A stretch of 64,000 nucleotides of DNA from Gammaproteobacteria bacterium (lineage in GTDB: Bacteria; Pseudomonadota; Gammaproteobacteria; SZUA-229), in assembly GCA_029882395.1 (NCBI GenBank), contig JAOUKT010000010.1:1-64000 (forward strand). Direction: 5' to 3'. The notes beneath the pieces were generated by a model that saw nothing but the letters and a program-made list of their open reading frames with translations, was not told where the DNA came from and did not search any database. Below, piece by piece: positions 15,206 to 47,719 of the stretch (position 1 is the first letter of the stretch; each line of letters opens with the position of its first letter). The position numbers and the translations under genes are program-made.

Positions 15206-15670
15206 TATTTATATGTTGTAACTATAGCAATGTAATCAATATAAAATAGCGCATTAAACTGACAGCTTTGTAGGAATTATCTGATTCGGGAATATGGAAT
15301 GCAGGTTCAATTCGTAGCTTGATCTGTAGTATGGGGATTAACAAAAAGATCAAGGAAAAAGTCAAAGGCGTAGGTGGCTGAGCGACTGCAGATTACTTTT
15401 CTATCTACAGCAATAGAAAATCAACCAAAAGAGTGCCGCCCAGTTAATCAATCTCTCATTAGAAAACAATGAAAGATTCATCATTAGCCGAAATATTTCG
15501 GCTGCGACGTTCAAATTAGCTATGCAATTTTCCGTTTGTATTTTACACGGGACGAAAGGAGAGCATCATTGAAATGCGAGTAACAATAAAGACAGTCATC
15601 ACAGAAAACTCCGAAAGTATTACTCCTTGCTCGGCTTGCTCAAATGGGGAGAGTGGGTCAAAATCTTAAA
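15206..15670. other. Intergenic region without a recognisable gene
   Basis: No ORF with a convincing start or product is seen. The one notable item is a perfect 18-base palindrome AGCCGAAATATTTCGGCT at 15486-15503. The heptamer array begins at its right edge. Confidence 0.6.
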
Positions 15671-15730
15671 GACTTAGGACTTAGGACTTAGGACTTAGGA
15701 CTTAGGACTTAAGACTTAAGACTTAAGTCC
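15671..15730. repeat. Heptamer tandem array 1
   Basis: Five copies of GACTTAG are followed by three of GACTTAA and a final GTCC. Read on the other strand, the units are AGTCCTA and AGTCTTA, so this array belongs to the same AGTC-xxx family as the arrays at 30911-31090 and 46442-46513. It lies between the 3' end of the gene at 15762 and the upstream region of the lipoprotein gene. Confidence 0.95.
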
Positions 15731-30085: not shown

Positions 30086-30856
30086 TTATTGCCGTCTGGT
30101 GAATACCCAGTTGTTGCCCTTGCTGGCCTTTTGGTTAAATGTATAACCTTCTTCATCAAAGGCTTTAATATCGTCAGGCTTGGATAACTGGTTTTGAATA
30201 ATATAGCGGCTTAACAGTCCGCGGGCTTTTTTGGCATAGATGCCAATCATTTTATATTCGCCGTTTTTATACTCTTTGAACGCGGGCGTAATAATCTCAG
30301 CATTGATGGCTTTGGTTTTTACTGATTTAAAATATTCATTGGAAGCAAGGTTAATTAAATGCTGTGATTTACTGGCTTTTAATTGTTTGTTGATGGCATC
30401 GGTAATGATGCTGCCCCAGAATTCATAGAGGTTTTTGCCGCGTTCATTATCAAGCCTTGTACCCATTTCAAGCCGATACGGAAACATTAAATCAAGTGGT
30501 CGCAGCAAACCGTACAAGCCAGACAGCATACGGAAATGTTTCTGTGCAAACTTGATGTCAGCAGAAGAAAAGCTGTCCGCATCTAGGCCGGTATAAACAT
30601 CGCCTTTAAAAGCAAACATCGCCTGTTTGGCATTATCAGTGCTCAGCGGTAACGACCAGTCGGCATAACGATCAAAATTAAGCTCTGCCAGTTTCATGCT
30701 CAGGTGCATAAGCTCGGCAATGTCCATCGCTGAAAACTGACGCAGGCGATCGATTAAGATTTGTGAGTGTTCCAGAAACTCTGGCATGCTGCTGGTTTTG
30801 GTTTTAGCTGGGGTGTCGTAGTCGAGTTTTTTAGCCGGTGAAACAACGATTAGCAT
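30086..30856 (-). CDS. yaaA: Peroxide stress protein YaaA (DUF328/UPF0246)
   Basis: 256 aa, full length. MLIVVSPAKKLDY, FKGDVYTGLDADSF, LSGLYGLLRPLDLMFPYRLEMGT, FWGSIITDAIN and the final KGNNWVFTRRQ are family landmarks. E. coli YaaA lowers free iron during hydrogen-peroxide stress and has a DNA-binding fold. The heptamer array starts 54 bases upstream of its start codon, so the repeat lies in or near its promoter region. Confidence 0.95.
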   Translation of the reverse strand: MLIVVSPAKKLDYDTPAKTKTSSMPEFLEHSQILIDRLRQFSAMDIAELMHLSMKLAELNFDRYADWSLPLSTDNAKQAMFAFKGDVYTGLDADSFSSADIKFAQKHFRMLSGLYGLLRPLDLMFPYRLEMGTRLDNERGKNLYEFWGSIITDAINKQLKASKSQHLINLASNEYFKSVKTKAINAEIITPAFKEYKNGEYKMIGIYAKKARGLLSRYIIQNQLSKPDDIKAFDEEGYTFNQKASKGNNWVFTRRQ

Positions 30857-30910
30857 ATTTCTATTTCCGCGATTGGTTTGTTGGTTGCATTGATTATAAC
30901 AAAGTTAACG

Positions 30911-31090
30911 AGTCTTAAGTCCAAAGTCCAAAGTCCAAAGTCCAAAGTCCAAAGTCCAAAGTCCAAAGTCCAAAGTCCAAAGTCCAAAGTCCAAAGTCCA
31001 AAGTCCAAAGTCCAAAGTCCAAAGTCCAAAGTCCAAAGTCCAAAGTCTTAAGTCTTAATTCTTAAGTGTCAAGTCTCAAGTCAAAAGTCC
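30911..31090. repeat. Heptamer tandem array 2 (18 perfect copies)
   Basis: Eighteen exact copies of AGTCCAA (30918-31043) are flanked by variant units: AGTCTTA before, and AGTCTTA, AGTCTTA, ATTCTTA, AGTGTCA, AGTCTCA, AGTCAAA after. The variant edges and uniform centre are what recent expansion by slippage from a degenerate core would leave. It lies between yaaA and the nitroreductase gene. Confidence 0.97.
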
Positions 31091-31138
31091 TGTTGCCGGG
31101 CTTGCGGCGATTGACTTCGGACCTATCCCTGCATGCTG

Positions 31139-31804
31139 TCAATCGAAAAAGCGGGTGAAAGCCTCGACTTTTTCGCGGCTGGTGCGGTAGCTGTTCACCA
31201 GTGCGCTTTTATCCTCGTAGCCCAGGGCCATGCCGCAGAGCAGAACACTGTCGTTAGCGTAGCCTAACTGCTGTTTTACAATCTCGGGGTAATCAGCAAG
31301 TGCCGCTTGCGGACAGGTGGCGAGTCCTTCTGCCTGGGCGCTGAGCATTAGAGACTGTAAGAACATGCCGTAATCGAGATAGGAGCCGGCTTGCATGACG
31401 GGGTCAAGAAAAAACAAAAGCATCACAGGGGCATCAAAGGCGCGGAAGTTTTTTGCCCACTGGTCTAACTGTTTTTGTTTGTCGTCGCGTTTAATGTCCA
31501 GCGTTTTATACATTTGCAAACCACAGGCCCGGCGACGATCTTTATAAGGCGACTGCCATTCTAACGGGTAGTATTGATAATCGGCATGGGCTTTATCACC
31601 GTTACGAAAAGCGGTTTCGAGTTTTGTCTGTAATTCTTCTTTCTGTTTGCCACTAACAACTGCAACCTGCCAGGGTTGTGTGTTGGTTCCCGAGGGTGCA
31701 TGCGAGGCGTTAGCCAGTATTTTTTCTATCAGCGATCTGTCGACCGTTTTTTGGAGAAAAGCACGGGTTGATTTTCTTTCCAGCAGAGCGTCAGTAACGT
31801 TCAT
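31139..31804 (-). CDS. Nitroreductase family protein
   Basis: 221-aa FMN-dependent oxidoreductase. LLERKSTRAFLQKTVDRSLIE and ASHAPSGTNTQPWQVAVVSG are the FMN-binding start of the family; LGYANDSVLLCGMALGYED near the end also fits. It begins 16 bases after glcF, suggesting it is the last gene of the glcDEF operon. Its physiological substrate is unknown; quinone or nitroaromatic reduction is the usual activity in vitro. Confidence 0.88.
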   Translation of the reverse strand: MNVTDALLERKSTRAFLQKTVDRSLIEKILANASHAPSGTNTQPWQVAVVSGKQKEELQTKLETAFRNGDKAHADYQYYPLEWQSPYKDRRRACGLQMYKTLDIKRDDKQKQLDQWAKNFRAFDAPVMLLFFLDPVMQAGSYLDYGMFLQSLMLSAQAEGLATCPQAALADYPEIVKQQLGYANDSVLLCGMALGYEDKSALVNSYRTSREKVEAFTRFFD

Positions 31805-45586: not shown

Positions 45587-46429
45587 TTATCTACAGCTGA
45601 CGGCAGAAGGCTTTTTTCTTAAGGGTCTGAAATAACTTTTATCGTTATAAAAGCTTTCATTTTGTCTGCCGTTCCACCAGCTGGGAACGCCAAGCAGCGG
45701 CAAAGGTTGCAAGTCTTTTGTTTTTTCAATGACCTTGTTTGACCAGATTTCTGATACCTGTATGTCGAGGTTTTTAACTTGCTGGTGTTCAGGTTGCGAG
45801 AAAAATCCTTCTGGTTTGTTAATTAATAGAGTGTGGCTGGTCATGCCAAGATAAGGTGCCAGTGCTTTTTCATGCATGGCATGGCCGAAGATATAACACT
45901 GTATGTTTTTTCCCCAGATGTGCTTTTTGTCACAGAATATTTCTTTCCATTGGTGGTTGCGAATCAACTCTAAATAGTTTTCGTTATCGGCAACGATGAT
46001 TGCGCCGCATTCATCAAACAGGGTGATAGCGTTTTCCAGCGGGCTGCGGTTGCTGCCAGCTTCTCTGCTCTTTGAATTTTCAAAGTGCAAGCAATTGAGT
46101 GCCGCTTTTGTTTTCGGGAACTGTAACCAGGCTGCGGCATTAAAAAAGTCGTGCCAGTTTTCGAGGCGGGTTTGTAGTTCACCTTTTAGATAAATACGCG
46201 ATTCATAATGGTCTTCAAATTTCTCGGGGGCTTCGCCTTGTGCGACAGGTTTGATTTGAATGTTGTTGTGAGACTGAATGTTTCTTTTTCTGAATTCTTC
46301 TGCAAGCTGTTCCAGTGTTGGCCATTGTCTGTGTTGGGTAAATGGCTGCGCAACTTCACGCAAGGAGGTAAAGAGGGGCGATGATTCAAGGAACGCTGGG
46401 TTCCAAGTGTCGATAGTTGTTTTTGCCAT
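45587..46429 (-). CDS. DUF3025 family protein
   Basis: 280 aa, cytosolic. WNPAFLESSPLFTSL at the start, YESRIYLKGELQTRLENWHDFFNAAAWLQFPKTKAALN and IFGHAMHEKALAPYLGMTSH match the DUF3025 family, found in many beta- and gammaproteobacteria and of unknown function. The last residues (LLGVPSWW) also fit. Upstream, 46430-46525 holds the degenerate third heptamer array between this gene and moaA. Confidence 0.88.
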   Translation of the reverse strand: MAKTTIDTWNPAFLESSPLFTSLREVAQPFTQHRQWPTLEQLAEEFRKRNIQSHNNIQIKPVAQGEAPEKFEDHYESRIYLKGELQTRLENWHDFFNAAAWLQFPKTKAALNCLHFENSKSREAGSNRSPLENAITLFDECGAIIVADNENYLELIRNHQWKEIFCDKKHIWGKNIQCYIFGHAMHEKALAPYLGMTSHTLLINKPEGFFSQPEHQQVKNLDIQVSEIWSNKVIEKTKDLQPLPLLGVPSWWNGRQNESFYNDKSYFRPLRKKPSAVSCR

Positions 46430-46441
46430 AAATAAAGAGAA

Positions 46442-46513
46442 AGTCGTAAGTCTGTAGTCGTAAGTCTATAGTCTCATGTTCAGATTTTGGACTAAAGACT
46501 TTCGGCTTATGAC
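46442..46513. repeat. Heptamer tandem array 3 (degenerate)
   Basis: Consecutive seven-base units AGTCGTA, AGTCTGT, AGTCGTA, AGTCTAT and AGTCTCA are followed, still in phase after two lost units, by ACTAAAG, ACTTTCG, GCTTATG and ACTGG. It is a worn version of the AGTC-xxx family of the other two arrays. Confidence 0.75.
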
Positions 46514-46514
46514 T

Positions 46515-46531
46515 GGCTAGCTCCGCTAGCC
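46515..46531. other. Hairpin over the moaA stop codon
   Basis: GGCTAGC-TCC-GCTAGCC forms a perfect seven-base stem with a three-base loop. It includes the TAG stop of moaA. No T-run follows on the minus strand, so it is not a standard terminator. Confidence 0.5.
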
Positions 46532-47506
46532 CCCTGTCATCGACATAAATCGCACCAGCTTTTCGGGCTTTTCATTGAACTCGTGTTTTTCGGGTTTGAG
46601 GTTTATAGCCCTGATGATGGCAGCTTTCAATTCATCATCGGTGCAGCCGTTGCGTAATAACGGGCGCAATGCAAGATTGTGTTCCTGACCGAGGCAGGTG
46701 TAGATAGTGCCGTCCACCGATAAACGCACGCGGTTACAGGTTTCACAGAAATGCTGTGAGATCGGGGTAATGAAACCGATGTTGATATCGGTGTCGGCGA
46801 CATTCATATAACGGGCGGGACCGCCGCCGGGCATAACGCCGGGGATTAAATCGAATTTTTCGGCCAGTCGCTGTTTGATGATTTGTAAATCGATGTACTG
46901 GCTCTGGGCATCGCGACCGGTATCACCCATTGGCATGGTTTCGATAAAGCGTAAGGTGAAGCCGTGTTCAATACAGAAGTTGAGCATGGCTTCTGCGTCC
47001 ATATCGTTCTCATCTTTCATCACCACCATATTGATTTTGATCGGTTTGAAGCCGGCAGCTTTGGCGGCCATTAAACCATCGATGACTTTTGAGAGCTTGC
47101 CGCCGGTCAGGCGTTTGAATTTGTCCGGGTCTAAGGTATCGAGGCTGACATTGAGGCGCTCGATGCCGCTGGCTTTTAGATCATCGGCATATTTGGCCAT
47201 GCGGGTGGCATTGGTGCTCAGGGATAAATCTTCAAGCCCGGGCAGAGCAGCCAGCTTATGTGCCAGTTCGGCGATGCCTTTTCTGATTAACGGTTCACCG
47301 CCGGTGAGTCGTATGCGCTTGGTGCCAAGTTCAGTGAAGGCTTTAACAACGCGTTCAATTTCAGCATTGCTGAGTGAGTGCTCGGCATCCTCATAGTCAC
47401 TAAAGTCTTTGGGCATGCAGTAGGTGCAGCGCAGGTCGCAGCGGTCGGTAACTGAAAGTCGCAGATACTCTATCGTGCGCCCAAATTGATCGGTCAGCTG
47501 TTTCAT
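46526..47506 (-). CDS. moaA: GTP 3',8-cyclase (molybdenum cofactor biosynthesis)
   Basis: 326 aa from the ATG at 47506 (a TTG at 47533 would add nine unlikely residues). Radical-SAM enzyme for the first step of molybdopterin synthesis. N-terminal cluster motif CDLRCTYCMP, RLTGGEPLIRKG, and the C-terminal cluster cysteines in FCETCNRVRLSVDG plus CLGQ are all present. The protein ends in the Gly-Gly tail that MoaA needs for activity. It lies divergent to soeA, a molybdoenzyme that depends on this pathway. Confidence 0.95.
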   Translation of the reverse strand: MKQLTDQFGRTIEYLRLSVTDRCDLRCTYCMPKDFSDYEDAEHSLSNAEIERVVKAFTELGTKRIRLTGGEPLIRKGIAELAHKLAALPGLEDLSLSTNATRMAKYADDLKASGIERLNVSLDTLDPDKFKRLTGGKLSKVIDGLMAAKAAGFKPIKINMVVMKDENDMDAEAMLNFCIEHGFTLRFIETMPMGDTGRDAQSQYIDLQIIKQRLAEKFDLIPGVMPGGGPARYMNVADTDINIGFITPISQHFCETCNRVRLSVDGTIYTCLGQEHNLALRPLLRNGCTDDELKAAIIRAINLKPEKHEFNEKPEKLVRFMSMTGG

Positions 47507-47719
47507 GGTCGTCCAGATGATGTCTATCGACAATAGCCGTTAGTATAGACCTATCGACTGTTCAGAGTTTGATTTGCTTCAATTTTAACGTATATTTAGC
47601 AAAAGTTAATATTCTAATTCGCTAAAATTAATAAATTCTTATATAGATAAATACTACTTATCGGCTGATTAAAAATTCTATCTTGCGAGTTATTACTGAT
47701 GCAGGCAGACTGCACGGCT

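Follow-up and report, generated by a model that had tools for sequence, protein, structure and literature searches.

A heptamer array beside yaaA in a gammaproteobacterium may be the expanded arm of a two-armed element placed behind genes

INTRODUCTION

Bacterial heptamer repeats were described decades ago, but their 7-bp period has lacked a convincing explanation; in many bacteria heptamers are, according to work cited in PMC4679880, the commonest long simple repeats. Several described systems are close to the sequences studied here. The REP/BIME/REPIN sequences are small, dispersed, intergenic inverted repeats that mostly follow coding regions, in gaps whose flanking genes are co-directional or convergent (PMC3733652). 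In the TAACTGA repeats of the marine Beggiatoaceae the full heptamer is fixed, just one inverted repeat is present and most sets lie directly upstream of starts (PMC4679880). The GGGNATC heptamers of Xanthomonas and Nostoc are G-rich and quadruplex-forming, prefer four units and are intergenic, often less than 50 bp from a stop codon (PMC4692102). Omega, the RHH ParB protein of plasmid pSM19035, places one dimer on each of its contiguous 7-bp boxes, which may be direct or inverted, and at least four boxes are needed for full activity (PMC9499535). Lastly, the DUS dialects of the Neisseriaceae are words of 10-12 nt that occur in very many single copies and frequently also form inverted pairs with a presumed terminator role (PMC3630211).

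Here, we describe an array of AAGTCCA heptamers located beside the yaaA gene in a 64,000-nt stretch of a gammaproteobacterial genome (contig JAOUKT010000010.1; hereafter, the window), together with the elements related to it. Like REPs and REPINs, these elements are dispersed, intergenic, inverted and located behind genes, but their arms consist of phased 7-bp units with a fixed box and a free spacer. With the TAACTGA repeats they share the dispersed, intergenic direct repetition of a heptamer in a gammaproteobacterium, and the other strand of those repeats, CAGTTAT, fits the CAGT-N3 dialect described below; unlike them, our elements have a free dinucleotide and inverted arms, and lie behind stop codons, including between convergent genes. 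The GGGNATC and the cyanobacterial heptamer repeats are similar in the 7-bp period, the variable position within the unit, the intergenic location and the proximity to stops, whereas the AAGTCNN / NNGACTT unit has no G-tract and GGGNATC heptamers are not described as oriented two-armed elements. The Omega boxes, also contiguous, 7 bp long and in direct or inverted order, are a precedent for proteins reading such an arrangement (PMC9499535); they form, however, a plasmid centromere/operator with WATCACW boxes, while the elements studied here are scattered behind chromosomal genes and their reader is putative. The DUS are the nearest example of lineage-specific word variants with a common short core in inverted pairs; in the 64-kb window, however, single AAGTC words show no enrichment. 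The elements are akin to REP-like palindromes and to heptamer repeats. A literature search returned no report of AAGTC heptamers, and no description of the two-armed heptad architecture was found in the searchable, largely open-access literature.

RESULTS

A preliminary description of the window had reported a run of perfect heptamers with decayed edges. The run is real: TRF identified 18.7 copies with period 7 and 100% matches, and a looser array that extends to 31082; reading the sequence directly, units related to AAGTCCA span from 30911 to about 31090 (Table 1). A pattern of four AAGTC-NN units matched 22 times in the window and never in its dinucleotide shuffles. The edges vary as had been claimed, and the array adjoins yaaA, lying between this gene and a nitroreductase gene, which are both encoded by the minus strand. 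The statement that no ORF uses the array is correct for credible genes only: no ORF of at least 60 aa traverses it, but the heptamer frames are open and ORFs of 42-59 aa, short and unconvincing, run across it. Searching the genome for further AGTC arrays, as had been proposed, returned related AAGTC-NN arrays or elements, including two in the window (15669-15724 and 46442-46514). These two had been overlooked in the preliminary description, as had a short inverted counterpart that comes after the array at 31113-31123.

Table 1. Features of the window discussed in the text
Feature	Position	Strand	Basis
Second AAGTC-NN array (AAGTCCT/AAGTCTT)	15669..15724	-	TRF and sequence
yaaA (peroxide stress protein)	30086..30856	-	Pfam H2O2_YaaD, E 4e-91
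Extended -10 like sequence TGTTATAAT upstream of yaaA, putative promoter	30893..30901	-	Consensus reading
Edge unit AGTCTT towards yaaA, with a G before it	30911..30916	+	Sequence
Homogeneous array, AAGTCCA x 18.7	30917..31047	+	TRF, shuffle control
Diverged units of the same arm (AAGTCTT, AATTCTT, AAGTGTC, AAGTCTC, AAGTCAA)	31048..31090	+	Sequence
Loop between the arms, with a small G+C inverted repeat inside (GCCG...CGGC)	31091..31112	.	Sequence
Opposite arm, two boxes at 7-bp pitch: GACTTCGGACC (minus strand GGTC-CGA-AGTC)	31113..31123	-	Sequence
Nitroreductase-family gene, element on its 3' side	31139..31804	-	ORF and domain search
Complete inverted element, AGTC family	46442..46514	.	AGTC/GACT word display

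Read in the sense of the two genes, the nitroreductase stop codon is followed, after about 15 bp, by the two boxes of the opposite arm (GGTCCGAAGTC), by the loop and by about 25 GACTT-type boxes, which end about 10 bp short of the extended -10 like sequence of yaaA; a similar sequence is present upstream of yaaA in the congener G001. This arrangement fits the idea that the array is the expanded distal GACTT arm of a two-armed element. The locus is a weak example of such an element, because its short arm has just two boxes, one of them imperfect. The complete element of the window has AGTC at 46442, 46449, 46456, 46463 and 46470 and GACT at 46490, 46497 and 46511, and is flanked by moaA (46526-47533, minus strand) and a DUF3025 gene (45587-46429, minus strand). 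The stop codon of a 116-aa ORF without an assigned family precedes the second AAGTC-NN array by about 32 bp.

The source genome (G000) contains more than 12 AAGTC-NN arrays, most of which are part of a two-armed element. Three consecutive AAGTC-NN units gave 101 matches in the whole source genome, against 0 for the reversed pattern. AAGTC is constant across the arrays, and the other two bases differ (CA, CT, TT, AG, GG, AT, GT and TA), homogenised in blocks within arrays. Because a search for AAGTC itself selects for AAGTC, we also sampled unselected stretches. Four of the five period-7 tracts found in those of two relatives were AAGTC-NN (AAGTCAT once, AAGTCGT three times), the fifth being AAGTATT; 243 kb of unselected source-genome sequence held no period-7 tract.

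On the AGTC/GACT word display, many arrays of G000 and G001 face an arm of opposite orientation 20-80 bp away. The resulting architecture has, at a constant pitch of 7 bp, AGTC boxes in the left arm and GACT boxes in the right arm, with 3-bp free spacers and a short loop between the arms; the order, AGTC first and GACT second, reads identically on both strands. The pattern AGTCNNNAGTC-(5-35)-GACTNNNGACT is present in 12/54 genomes of the family, at about 9 places in G000 and about 15 in G001, and also in G003 and G006, though these lack long arrays; the genomes compared are mostly metagenome assemblies, in which arrays often break contigs. The opposite arm order (GACT first) was found in 0/54 family genomes. 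Some copies in G001 have common centres, which suggests spread by copying; such spread could also explain the common arm order.

Two further repeats were seen near these arrays. At the end of contig C152 of G000 (L157:5719-5768), seven copies of CGAGAGG directly follow an AAGTC-NN array, and in G001 (L162:8086-8643) three tandem 186-bp repeats with palindromic CGAATAAATTCG motifs lie near heptad elements.

The placement relative to genes was evaluated on gene calls made in this analysis with a codon-aware caller. Among 47 family elements and arrays with both neighbours resolved, 26 lay between co-directional genes, 20 between convergent genes and 1 between divergent genes (1/47 vs 21% in the background, p = 1.6e-4). 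In the sole divergent case, that of the window array at 15671, the 116-aa ORF had escaped the caller. Complete elements begin at a median of about 5-9 bp from the stop codon, most of them within 15 bp. In 16/20 single-arm arrays AAGTC reads in the same direction as the upstream gene, the yaaA array being among the exceptions. In G161, which belongs to another gammaproteobacterial family, ten sampled elements were co-directional (6) or convergent (4) and never divergent, with a stop codon within about 16 bases for most. Outside the home family a crude ORF caller gave 7/26 "divergent" cases, many with overlapping ORFs in G+C-rich genomes; since those of G161 became co-directional under the codon-aware caller, we claim the placement for the home family and G161 only.

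The elements are retained at orthologous sites across genera, as seen at a handful of sites. Directly after the rpiA stop codon an element is present in five genomes of four genera (G008, G005, G006, G033 and G025), with boxes in phase and unrelated spacers and loops; in G033 and G025 the loop is a G+C hairpin. The same gap holds CAGTTGG heptads in G003, AAGT-N3 heptads in G013 and G410, ordinary terminators in G020, G026, G019, G012 and others, and other palindromes in G009 and G017. At moaA, AGTC elements occur in G000, G001 and G003 with boxes in phase and different spacers and loops, and the gap of G002 holds a related centre surrounded by six GCGGTTT heptamers. Two more retention pairs, partly from random stretches, are G005/G033 and G008/G033; in the latter, opposite arms have expanded in the two species, the left in one and the right in its counterpart.

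Other periodic palindromes were observed in the rpiA gap. Those of G009 and G017 (L488, L491), like the one at L230:14290-14460, are intergenic palindromes whose direct-repeat arms are built on the 10-bp unit AACGCAAATN, and those of G411, G409, G015 and G416 (L508, L510, L504 and L509) have units around ACACAGAG, ACAGATGAAC and CGCAAAGG. Repeat-armed palindromes thus seem to be used behind genes in several lineages.

Elements with the same architecture, a similar centre (AAAAGC..GCTTTT) and CAGT-N3 units are present in 17/54 family genomes, with a single, chance-like match to the opposite order in 54 genomes. No genome of the family has both AGTC and CAGT pair patterns (Fisher p = 0.005, uncorrected for phylogeny), where the patterns require two exact boxes per arm and exclusivity refers to this pattern. 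G003, which has AGTC pairs, also carries CAGT heptads behind rpiA and at L189:2255-2314. The latter is a CAGTGGG array, and the same convergent gap in G001 is occupied by an AAGTC two-armed element (L162:12822-12930).

Extending a broader pattern to the class, we found it in 23/369 genomes, with 137 matches in G161, which uses a CAAGT-NN dialect. Reversed-pattern controls were found in 13 class genomes, and elements with TGAA/TGAC cores exist; the class thus also has cores other than AGTC/CAGT. CTGAA, the reversed control, is about as common as AAGTC in the class (10 genomes each) and, as heptamer tracts, in viral contigs. Therefore, the cores are lineage-specific. We rejected AAGTC as a universal heptamer core and, on the same CTGAA evidence, dropped the general rule that ARTY or AGT is part of every known bacterial heptamer. 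Most AAGTC arrays of other phyla have a single arm, clear two-armed cases being those of Acidobacteriota L072 and Chloroflexi L088; a Bacteroidales locus (L140) has the opposite arm order.

DISCUSSION

The pattern of the elements, their strict order, the 3' placement, the retention at orthologous sites with diverged spacers, the lineage-specific cores and the lack of co-pairing between spacers are established by the comparisons made here. The period corresponds to a lattice in which fixed boxes alternate with free spacers, the arms being inverted in a fixed order and the dialects switching between genera. This lattice, with its order, 3' site, orthologous retention and dialects, points to a trans-acting reader, and we infer that a sequence-specific host factor, as yet putative, reads the 7-bp lattice. 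The explanation we prefer, with a probability of roughly 55%, is that the yaaA array arose by expansion of the distal arm of a dispersed 3' element, whose boxes would be read by the host factor and whose arms would grow by slippage. Weighing against it are the poor two-armed form of the yaaA locus itself, the small number of sites with retention, the other palindromes or plain terminators that some relatives have at such a site, the G001 copies with common centres, the negative terminator and Rfam results given below, and the similar frequency of CTGAA heptamer tracts in the class and in viral contigs. The factor could act on DNA or on the transcript, and reading could help to end transcription, to insulate neighbouring genes or to stabilise the 3' end of the transcript. 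Since head-to-tail boxes are prone to slippage or unequal crossing-over, the units of one arm could be multiplied and the arm could grow into a long homogeneous array, such as that beside yaaA.

A hairpin of RNA or DNA selected for its stability, i.e., an unusual intrinsic terminator, would account for the position a few bases behind stop codons, for the AAAAGC..GCTTTT centres and for the canonical intrinsic terminators that occupy the rpiA site in other genera. Folding is significant: owing to the complementarity between the boxes of opposite arms, whole AGTC elements are more stable when folded than their dinucleotide shuffles (median z -5.1 over 33 elements). Conversely, pairing between the spacers of the left and right arms does not exceed that obtained by exchanging arms among elements (0.54 vs 0.54, p = 0.51), and no spacer co-pairing above the permuted level was present in the CAGT and G161 sets either. 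Selection on the helix alone should match the spacers and ignore arm order, which favours recognition of boxes at 7-bp pitch; the boxes stay AGTC or CAGT instead of any pairing quartet, and the order is fixed though the reverse would fold equally. From these comparisons, it is the sequence of the boxes, and not the stability of the helix, that seems to be conserved, and we consider a selected hairpin rather unlikely. A canonical intrinsic terminator was rejected at the two element sites of the window (30.9-31.1 and 46.4-46.5 kb), which have no terminator-like G+C-rich stem followed by a T run. An Rfam family was also rejected, with 0 matches at gathering score in 115 kb of sequence drawn from ten sources, element loci among them, and 0 matches at E 1 for the yaaA array.

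That the elements are non-autonomous mobile elements of the REP/REPIN kind, inverted pairs spread by a transposase such as RAYT, is suggested by their dispersed, intergenic, inverted and fixed-order arrangement behind genes, as in REPs (PMC3733652), and by the centre common to some G001 copies. On the other hand, Y1_Tnp (PF01797, RAYT) had 0 matches in the element-rich genomes G000 (94.6% complete), G001, G005 (100%) and G008 (95%), on which basis a RAYT/REP origin was rejected. Furthermore, most copies have spacers and loops unrelated to those of the others, which is unexpected for a copied element unless very old, and no constant end tag such as the GTAG or CGTC of REPs was noticed by eye in the printed elements. 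We therefore regard this origin as unlikely.

The preliminary description had explained the array by slippage or unequal crossing-over after recent growth of an older array with a homogenised centre. In the plainest form of this view, a chance heptamer was duplicated and grew into a microsatellite without function. The recent growth agrees with the data: among four congeners the yaaA array is present only in the source genome. G001 and G003 lack both the array and the nitroreductase gene, and G002 keeps the nitroreductase-yaaA synteny with a 73-bp gap that has just two GACTT words. As judged from this comparison, the array is young at its locus, and it probably grew by slippage, as the homogeneous centre with decayed edges also suggests. 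Furthermore, two contig ends of the source assembly share flanks on both sides and hold 140 and 203 bp of one array, lengths that fit copy-number variation, with assembly error as the alternative. The abundance of heptamers among the long simple repeats of many bacteria, as cited in PMC4679880, is also in line with slippage. The idea of a lone neutral array is not supported, however, since the AAGTC core, accompanied by a free dinucleotide, recurs throughout the genome and in most cases belongs to an arm of an inverted element with strict arm order, and the elements sit behind genes and are kept in orthologous gaps across genera. Slippage without function is, in our opinion, improbable.

A DNA uptake signal, i.e., a dialect word for transformation often inverted at terminators as the DUS of the Neisseriaceae, would share lineage-specific dialects, a common short core and inverted pairs behind genes (cf. 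PMC3630211), but is very improbable, as the words lie in phased arms and not in thousands of scattered copies, and the lack of single-copy enrichment in the 64-kb window, with 108 AAGTC words outside the heptad phase against 97 expected from trinucleotide context, led us to reject it.

If the yaaA array is the overgrown arm of a box-bearing 3' element, the origin of long heptamer arrays would be explained as runaway arms of a maintained element, and a testable role at gene ends follows from the proposed reader. More tentatively, and with the odds somewhat against it, the elements could represent an undescribed class of bacterial 3'-flanking elements, made of inverted four-base boxes on a 7-bp lattice, with the dialects AGTC-N3, CAGT-N3 and CAAGT-NN and a putative reader, and many of the heptamer arrays reported in bacteria could be their overgrown arms.

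Heptads with other cores were also encountered during the searches. Two viral contigs (L385 and L422) carry several CTGAA heptads each, in inverted pairs about 33 bp apart, which suggest that two-armed heptad elements with a CTGAA core exist on viral or viral-like contigs. Lastly, G351, a very heptamer-rich gammaproteobacterium, has 175 matches to four CTGAA-NN units in a genome of 2.3 Mb.
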